Part shown: positions 5,502 through 7,328 of the stretch, in pieces
How the letters are laid out: every line of letters starts with the position of its first letter
Position numbering within the stretch: the first letter of the stretch is position 1
Source: Bacillota bacterium
GTDB taxonomy: Bacteria > Bacillota > Sulfobacillia > Sulfobacillales > JAIMBI01
Direction of reading: 5' to 3'
NCBI GenBank assembly: GCA_021818685.1
Contig: JAKATP010000012.1
Location: 1 to 38,086 of the forward strand
DNA length: 38,086 bases
Notes under the pieces: generated by a model
The model's input: only the letters and a program-made list of their open reading frames with translations
What the model was told of the DNA's origin: nothing
The model's database searches: none
Position numbers and translations under genes: made by a program

Positions 5502-5602
5502 GGCTCCTGTTTCTGCCGGGCGTGCTCGTGGTACTGTCGTGGCACGACCTGCCCGTGTGGGAGGGGTCGGGTTCGACTGGAGCTATGGAAGGAGGCGTAT
5601 AG

Positions 5603-5869
5603 ATGGCCGACGTGATCATTTACGGCACCCCTACCTGAAGCGACTGCATCGGGGCGAGAGAGTTTCTCTCCCAGCATGGCCATCCCTTTACGTACCATAA
5701 CGTGGCGGAGGATCCCGCCGCCAAAGAGCGGGCGATGGCGTTGAACGGCGGCCGGTTCGGAAATCCCACCATTCTGGTGGACGGCCAGGTGGTGATGGCG
5801 GGCGGAGTCTTCACCCCCGGCATTTTTCGGGGCGTGGACGGGCTTCCCACCGAACTGCGGGAGGCGTAG
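5603..5869 (+). CDS. Selenocysteine-containing glutaredoxin-like protein (in-frame UGA)
   Basis: The reading frame is 88 codons and begins MADVIIYGTPT, followed by UGA (5636-5638), then SDC. It continues without interruption through GNPTILVDGQVV to TAG at 5867. The family is glutaredoxin/NrdH/mycoredoxin: beta-strand VIIYGTPT, active site CxxC, and the cis-Pro in NPTILVDG. The UGA is codon 12 and replaces the first cysteine, giving U-S-D-C with Cys15 as resolving residue. AAGGAGG lies 7 nt before the ATG. A hairpin suited to a bacterial SECIS follows the UGA (separate entry). If the UGA were a true stop, an 11-residue peptide would precede 76 codons of conserved glutaredoxin with no start, which is unlikely. 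Alternatives are UGA read as Cys by an unusual tRNA, or sequencing error. Its neighbour carries the same kind of UGA, arguing against error. It probably acts as a small cytoplasmic thiol/selenol oxidoreductase. Confidence 0.85.
5653..5672 (+). promoter_or_regulatory. Putative bacterial SECIS hairpin in the glutaredoxin mRNA
   Basis: GAGAGA (5656-5661) pairs perfectly with UCUCUC (5665-5670) around a GUU loop, and GG (5653-5654) pairs with CC (5671-5672) with one bulged C. The loop begins 23 nt after the UGA. SelB-binding bacterial SECIS elements are short hairpins at this distance downstream of UGA with a G, usually GU, in the apical loop, which this fits. Confidence 0.6.
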
Positions 5870-5883
5870 CGGGTCCGGATAAG

Positions 5884-5910
5884 AACGGCCCGGGCTCCGT
5901 CCGGGCCGTT
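5884..5910 (+). terminator. Hairpin/terminator between the two UGA-containing genes
   Basis: A 10-bp perfect stem (5884-5893 with 5901-5910) has a 7-nt loop and ends in TTT followed by GGGG. The U-tract is short, so termination may be partial, acting as an attenuator between the two genes. Confidence 0.5.
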
Positions 5911-5975
5911 TGGGGTTTCGGGACTTCTCCCCCTAATCGGCGCACCCGCTAAGCGCCATGGGGCATAATACGGAC

Positions 5976-7328
5976 ATGAATAAAGGACGGTTCGTGGTGA
6001 TCGGGGGCGATGCGGCCGGCATGACGGCCGCTTCCCAAGTCAGGCGTCAAGCCCCCGAGCTGGAGATTCTCGTGTTCGAACAGGGAGTCTACACCTCGTA
6101 TTCCTCGTGAGGCATTCCCTATCTGGTCGGCCAGTTGGTCGGCGACACGGATGACCTGGTGGTGCGGACACCGGAGGCCTTCCGGCGGGCGGGGATCGAC
6201 GTGTGGATCCGCCACCGCGTCACCGCTGTGGATTTAGGGCGTCATTTGGTCGAGGTGACCGACCTCGATACCGCCCGGACCTACTGGGAATCGTTTGACC
6301 GACTTTTGCTCGCCACCGGTGCGCGCCCTGTCATCCCCGACGCGATCGATGCGAGCCTGGCCGGTGTGTACGGCGTGAAGAGCCTCGACGATGCCCGCGC
6401 CATTCAGCACGCTCTGGACGCGGCCCCGGGCGCGTCCGTGGTCGTGGTGGGCGGCGGCTACGTCGGCGTGGAGATGGCAGAGAACCTCCGCCGCATCGGC
6501 CGGTCCGTCACGGTTATAGACCGGAACCCAGCCCTGATGAGCAGTCTCGACCCGGATATGAGCCAACGCGTCACGGAGTTGGCTCTGAGTCTGGGTATCA
6601 AGGTCGCGCTCGAAGAAAACTTGACCGGCCTGGACGCCCACGGGGGTGTGGTGCGGGCTGTCCAAACCGATCGGGCGCGGCATCCGGCGGACATTGTCAT
6701 CCTTGGTCTCGGCGTAAGGCCCGAGGCCGAGCTTGCAGCGTCGGCCGGCATCCCCCTCGGTGTCGGCGGTGCCGTGCATGTCGACGACCATTGCCGCACC
6801 GGCATCCAGGACGTCTTGGCCGCCGGCGACTGCGCCGATGCTTATGACGTGGTCCGACGGCAGTACGTATATCAGCCGCTTGCGACTCACGCCAGCAAGC
6901 AAGGTCGGATCGCGGGCCTCGCGGTCGCGGGGCGGTCCGGCCGCTTTCCCGGTGTAACCGGCACGGCGGTGACCCAGATCGGGAACGCGGAGATTGCGCG
7001 TACGGGCATCGGCGAGCGAGAGATTCGTTCCCTCAACATCGACGGGGCGGCCGCGGCCATCTCCTCCACTACCCGGGTCGGCTACATGCCAGGTGCCTCG
7101 GCCGTCCACGTCAAGCTGTGGGGTGAGCGGGGCAGCGGTCGGCTCCTCGGCGCTCAGATAGTGGGTGGCCCGGGTGCCGGTAAGCGCATCGACGTCGTAG
7201 CCACCGCCCTTATGATGGCGATGACGGTCGAAGACCTGCTCGGACTCGATCTCGCCTACTCTCCCGGACTGTCAGACACCTGGGATCCCGTACAGGTGGC
7301 GGCCCGTGTCCTCGTACGCGATCTATAG
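5976..7328 (+). CDS. FAD/NAD(P)-dependent disulfide reductase, CoA-disulfide reductase family, with in-frame UGA (selenocysteine)
   Basis: The complete frame is 450 residues. It opens with an FAD-binding Rossmann motif (VVIGGDAAGMTAASQVRR), has the NAD(P) motif VVVGGGYVGVEMAENLRR around residue 155, and a second FAD motif DVLAAGDCADAYDVV near 280. The C-terminal dimerisation domain ends in LDLAYSPGLSDTWDP. This is the coenzyme A-disulfide reductase/NADH oxidase group, which uses a single cysteine in the motif SFxxCGxPYY. Here the text is SYSS-UGA-GIPYLVG: the UGA (6108-6110, codon 45) is exactly that cysteine. Sec is therefore the predicted sole redox residue facing FAD. All other family motifs are intact and the frame is open on both sides, so decay is unlikely. 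The ATG at 5976 is favoured for alignment to the family N-terminus. An in-frame ATG at 5958 exists, and neither has a strong ribosome site. The substrate (CoA disulfide, persulfide, polysulfide, peroxide or the adjacent redoxin) is unknown. Confidence 0.85.
6119..6138 (+). promoter_or_regulatory. Putative bacterial SECIS hairpin in the disulfide-reductase mRNA
   Basis: CUGG (6123-6126) pairs with CCAG (6131-6134) around a UCGG loop. Beyond one U-U mismatch, three more pairs (A-U, U-G, C-G) extend the stem. The loop starts 17 nt after the UGA and contains G. Position and size fit a bacterial SECIS, though the stem is weaker than that of the glutaredoxin gene. Confidence 0.5.

Follow-up and report, generated by a model that had tools for sequence, protein, structure and literature searches.

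A predicted selenocysteine-containing glutaredoxin and an adjacent predicted selenoenzyme of the flavoprotein type in a genome of the Sulfobacillia

We analyzed a 38,086-nucleotide stretch of DNA from a bacterium of the class Sulfobacillia (hereafter the window) and found that a small gene in it very probably encodes a selenoprotein, with an in-frame UGA decoded as selenocysteine (Sec) at the reactive site of a glutaredoxin, as judged from comparative sequence analysis. The coincidence of the TGA with the catalytic Cys position, its conservation, the covariation of a downstream hairpin and the constraint on synonymous sites together lie far beyond chance. A second in-frame UGA, 470 bp downstream of the first and overlooked in the original prediction, lies in the neighbouring flavoprotein gene, which very probably encodes a second selenoenzyme that uses UGA in the same way. 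The features are listed in Table 1.

Table 1. Features of the predicted glutaredoxin and flavoprotein genes in the window
Feature	Position	Strand	Basis or remark
Shine-Dalgarno-like AGGAGG	5590..5595	+	7 nt upstream of ATG; read from sequence
Predicted Sec glutaredoxin gene (88 aa, UxxC), from ATG 5603 to TAG ending 5869	5603..5869	+	reading frame, profile matches, predicted fold, purifying selection
UGA (predicted Sec), codon 12, nucleophilic Cys position	5636..5638	+	sequence and homologue alignment
Putative bSECIS hairpin core GAGAGA-GUU-UCUCUC (stem 5656-5661/5665-5670, loop 5662-5664)	5656..5670	+	covariation, fixed distance, synonymous constraint
Strong GC-rich hairpin after glutaredoxin stop	5883..5911	+	also in sister genome G001; possible terminator or processing site; not called by terminator scan
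CATAAT, -10-like box, 6 nt before flavoprotein ATG	5964..5969	+	also in sister genome G001; not called by promoter scan
Predicted selenoprotein, CoA-disulfide-reductase/NADH-oxidase-type flavoprotein (450 aa)	5976..7328	+	homology, TIGR03385 best match
UGA (predicted Sec), codon 45, catalytic Cys (SYSS-U-GIPY)	6108..6110	+	homologue alignment
Putative bSECIS hairpin GUCGGCC-AGUU-GGUCGGC, loop starting 22 nt after UGA	6126..6143	+	conserved position and shape

A glutaredoxin frame with a single in-frame UGA

Read directly, the frame runs through 88 codons with a single in-frame TGA, and its read-through translation begins MADVIIYGTPT-U-SDCIGAREFLSQHG... The TGA falls exactly at the nucleophilic Cys of the family, giving the active site U-S-D-C with Cys15 as the resolving Cys. 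Residues 4 to 64 matched the Pfam glutaredoxin family (PF00462; E=6.5e-12, 45.9 bits, above the curated cut-off of 22.9). Direct reading and the Pfam match thus confirmed the original description of a glutaredoxin frame uninterrupted save for a TGA at codon 12. That a normal open reading frame search misses the gene also proved correct, as no open reading frame of at least 80 aa was found in this frame when the window was searched. The glutaredoxin fold was predicted with confidence (mean pLDDT 89.7) and matched solved glutaredoxins in a fold search; both a C/UxxC active site and a thioredoxin-like fold are present. When the window species was compared with the sister genome G001, dN was 0.09 and dS was 0.95 downstream of the UGA, a ratio of about 0.1 that indicates purifying selection past this codon.

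A TGA at a Cys codon could be a lesion, either a pseudogene mutation or a sequencing error, and the genome that holds the window (G000) is a 3.09-Mb draft of 246 contigs (95.8% complete) in which single-base errors may occur. A narrow-alignment scan of the genome collection returned five related MAG loci, and six genomes from separate MAGs, that of the window included, have the same TGA. This recurrence in independent MAGs makes a misread TGC or TGT, a concern raised with the original prediction, very unlikely. The low dN/dS after the TGA and the presence of a UGA at the neighbouring gene's own catalytic Cys also speak against a lesion, and we regard this explanation as refuted by conservation and its remaining probability as negligible. 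In a survey of 154 genomes of the class, the close subgroup of the window glutaredoxin, marked by VMAGGVFTP, was confined to six genomes of the window's own family; it carried TGA in every one, and Cys forms of it were not found in any of the 154. In the column that holds the UGA, more distant glutaredoxin homologues had either TGA or a Cys codon (TGC/TGT), and the proposed alignment of Cys-containing homologues placed Cys at the position of the UGA.

The classical glutathione-binding motif of glutaredoxins is GG-x-D-D. In the alignment, the acidic pair is absent from the window glutaredoxin, which reads GGVFT; glutaredoxin-like action is therefore possible with no requirement for glutathione, and from its sequence glutathione is a doubtful partner. 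BshA, which serves bacillithiol synthesis, was found in none of 31 genomes.

The best sequence match in the PDB was Grx1 of Clostridium oremlandii (7c10, 7c12; PMC7642778; 35% identity in the structural alignment), which likewise combines a glutaredoxin fold with a natural Sec as the first residue of UxxC. Unlike Grx1, which has UPxC, the window protein has USDC, with no Pro after the Sec, and a different C-terminal part (VMAGGVFTP). The UXX-star proteins (NCBIfam NF041212, NF041114 and NF041211) are also small and glutaredoxin-like, and their UGA falls at the corresponding site. Among NCBIfam models, NF041212 matched best (E=1.5e-12, 47.5 bits), and the score lies below the current curated family cut-off of 66; unlike UXX-star, the window glutaredoxin forms its own subgroup, confined to one family of the class.

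Metal ligation has been discussed for UXX-star (PMC13188914), the closest curated family, and the Sec of the window protein could accordingly be a ligand of a metal or metalloid in a selenoprotein that is not a general disulfide reductase. The missing D-D pair and the appearance of ArsD metallochaperone chains at ranks 7 and 9 of the fold search would agree with such a role. However, the ArsD chains superimposed with an rmsd of 3.5 A, compared with 1.7-1.9 A for true glutaredoxins, the arrangement of UxxC plus resolving Cys is that of a dithiol redoxin, and the top PDB hit by sequence, a Sec glutaredoxin, acts as a reductant. We consider the ligand role unlikely and favour a thiol-disulfide oxidoreductase of the glutaredoxin fold, in which the selenolate at position 12 would attack a bond such as a disulfide, with Cys15 as the resolving residue.

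Hairpins downstream of the UGA codons

Bacteria usually insert Sec by way of SelB bound to a hairpin, the bSECIS. In the glutaredoxin gene, the ribosome would meet the UGA at codon 12, where the downstream hairpin would serve as the bSECIS and hold SelB with Sec-tRNA(UCA). The Sec-tRNA would be made by SelA with selenophosphate from SelD, and Sec would take the position of the nucleophilic Cys.

The bSECIS model that we used (PMC13188914) has a stem of 4-16 bp, a loop of 3-9 nt with G in the first two loop positions, and a distance of 16-37 nt from the UGA. With a stem of 6 bp, a GUU loop and a loop start 23 nt after the UGA, the glutaredoxin hairpin fits this geometry. Its six-pair core has an energy of -5.5 kcal/mol, compared with -7.5 kcal/mol or lower in the published model (PMC13188914), and a fold that includes flanking Gs is more stable. 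The 45-nt fold after the UGA has an energy of -14.4 kcal/mol, as expected for its composition (z=-0.49 against shuffles). The hairpin emphasized in the original prediction as strong thus exists as described, but is unremarkable by itself: of the 905 TGA triplets in the GC-rich window, 152 were followed by a bSECIS-like hairpin of equal or greater stability, so that the hairpin alone proves little. Since the fold energy of the single sequence is uninformative, we based the case on its position, on covariation and on constraint at synonymous sites.

In 14 Sec glutaredoxins, the distance from the UGA to the loop start was precisely 23 nt. The hairpin reads GCGAAAGC-GUG-GCUUUCGC in a sister genus and GCGAAAGA-GUU-UCUUUCGC in other families; three pairs varied on both sides, 95.5% of the cells were paired, and the covariation score was reached by none of 500 shuffles, a control that takes no account of relatedness. 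Among the Sec forms, 25 of 31 carried a model-like hairpin at or below -5 kcal/mol, versus 6 of 29 among the Cys forms. Between the window species and its sister, synonymous differences were found at 0/12 in codons 13-24 of the glutaredoxin gene versus 26/62 elsewhere. In line with the SECIS check suggested with the original prediction, the UGA is followed at a suitable distance by a hairpin that covaries and whose loop begins with G.

The hairpin of the flavoprotein gene was kept in position and shape, and its covariation signal was weak, five of the eight pairs being invariant. In the same two species, synonymous differences in flavoprotein codons 46-57 numbered 1/11 versus 156/344 elsewhere.

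Six free Sec glutaredoxins of family f3 (L044, L046, L048, L049, L050 and L052), had TGA at UxxC, and a model-like bSECIS was absent or weak within 45 nt; their insertion signal may be atypical.

Selenocysteine machinery and the meaning of UGA

The search for sel genes that had been proposed found selA, selB, selC (tRNA-Sec, anticodon UCA) and selD all in the window's genome. The SelB match has its N- and C-terminal parts in one frame. Identical copies of tRNA-Sec lie at the ends of two contigs (G000:C70:22233-22322 and G000:C175:30-119), which probably represent one gene at which the assembly breaks. The selD gene is itself a UGA gene (KSG-U-GCK; L021, G000:C233:17851-18783, - strand), and a second UGA glutaredoxin, of another subgroup, is found elsewhere in the genome with APG-U-SGC at UxxC (L114, G000:C121:10900-11700, - strand). 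On sequence grounds, the genome thus has at least four predicted selenoproteins. Every check proposed for the original inference of a true selenoprotein that could be run was favourable.

The UGA codons might also be read as Cys or another residue by an opal-decoding tRNA, or be reassigned, and both proteins would then be ordinary selenium-free enzymes. Cys homologues do function without Sec, and suppressor tRNA-Cys species that read opal codons have been postulated for certain bacteria. However, UGA was the ordinary stop codon of 11 of the 23 recognisable window genes, and an internal UGA occurred in only two of the 23, the glutaredoxin and the flavoprotein; a window-wide scan, in which the residues around each TGA were judged by eye, gave no convincing further candidate. 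A genome-wide pattern search, which could miss an unusual tRNA, found no UCA-anticodon tRNA other than selC. With UGA genes accompanied by sel genes and a conserved hairpin after each UGA, opal decoding appears very improbable, and UGA, as far as its use in these sequences indicates, is not reassigned in this organism.

Decoding as Sec also agreed with the distribution of the machinery among relatives. A UGA glutaredoxin or flavoprotein was present in 40 genomes, 38 of which have SelA; the two exceptions, G001 and G028, have SelB, and G028 has tRNA-Sec as well. In the sister genome G001 (a 97% complete draft of 140 contigs), both UGA genes and SelB were present, but SelA and tRNA-Sec were not found. 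SelA, SelB and tRNA-Sec were all missing from two genomes of the same order, G018 and G026, whose glutaredoxins carry Cys codons (TGC and TGT). The association between UGA genes and sel genes (Fisher, 1.3e-4) is overstated in significance, since the genome counts are not phylogenetically independent.

Two minor observations concern the machinery of relatives. In G028, a minor tRNA with a long variable arm and the Cys anticodon GCA scored 57 bits with the tRNA-Sec model (L088:1501-1590, - strand; G028:C290:8079-8170); it appears to be an unusual Sec-like minor tRNA-Cys beside the normal tRNA-Sec(UCA). The SelA of G011 (G011:C33:64781-65866) has one in-frame TAA, possibly a sequencing error, though that genome has UGA genes.

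The neighbouring flavoprotein and its pairing with glutaredoxin

A normal open reading frame search lists the flavoprotein gene from position 6135 only, whereas the full frame starts at the upstream ATG (Table 1). Its single predicted catalytic Sec lies in the SYxxC-GxPY context, as SYSSUGIPY, where homologues have Cys. The best match was TIGR03385, CoA-disulfide reductase (402 bits, under the equivalog cut-off of 578.8), and the sequence suggests a flavoprotein of the same type. After the UGA, dN was 0.14 and dS was 0.94 between the window species and its sister. Decoded in the same manner as the glutaredoxin, the flavoprotein would reduce a disulfide or persulfide of the CoA type by means of NAD(P)H and FAD; the glutaredoxin may be a further substrate.

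Sec-glutaredoxins (UxxC) and Sec CoA-disulfide reductases/NADH oxidases (UGxP) both appear in published lists of selenoprotein families (PMC13188914, PMC9312934, PMC1794560), and both predicted selenoproteins of the window belong to families already known. The neighbour has U-G-I-P like the known Sec CoA-disulfide reductase/NADH oxidase (PMC13188914; Geobacter metallireducens, PMC1794560); unlike it, the window flavoprotein scores beneath the TIGR03385 cut-off and lies beside a Sec-glutaredoxin. No report on these proteins was found in the literature on selenoproteins or selenocysteine of Sulfobacillus and Sulfobacillia. The window adds two well-supported adjacent selenoprotein genes, of a kind that standard gene calling overlooks or cuts short. 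A CtaG-like cytochrome oxidase assembly gene in the window makes it probable that the organism uses oxygen for respiration, whereas selenoproteins are described as seldom kept by aerobic bacteria (PMC13188914).

The glutaredoxin adjoins the flavoprotein in G000 and G001, and lies away from any such flavoprotein in genus g3. Another family supplies six genomes (G011, G020 and G029-G032) in which the gene immediately after the flavoprotein encodes a glutaredoxin of a different, fused type. Such a fusion, which resembles HUGP/GUXX-star (NF045501) and lies directly 3' of the same flavoprotein gene in relatives of the order, differs from the window arrangement in having an extra N-terminal domain and the reverse gene order. 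Across the two glutaredoxin types, the Sec/Cys state matched in 8/8 adjacent pairs (five Sec-Sec, three Cys-Cys, no mixed), which represent few independent events since the six other-family genomes share ancestry.

Co-transcription of the glutaredoxin and flavoprotein genes was unsupported, as the stretch between them contains a strong hairpin as well as a -10-like box in both sister species. The CATAAT box suggests that the flavoprotein gene may have its own, leaderless transcript.

A flavoprotein reductase would be a plausible electron donor to the glutaredoxin, which makes the neighbour a candidate, and a working partnership of the two is a possibility. That the pair forms a dedicated NAD(P)H-FAD-selenol relay, replacing glutathione or bacillithiol systems and with partners that switch together between Sec and Cys, is a tentative proposal that we hold to be unlikely. 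If the partners do cooperate, the order would supply natural Sec-Sec and Cys-Cys redox pairs for measuring the benefit of selenium.

Both states occurred within one family among the fused-glutaredoxin loci, with UGA in L065, L066 and L068 and Cys in L059, L060 and L064. The front domain of the fused glutaredoxin resembles pseudouridine synthase with an altered HRLD-type motif.
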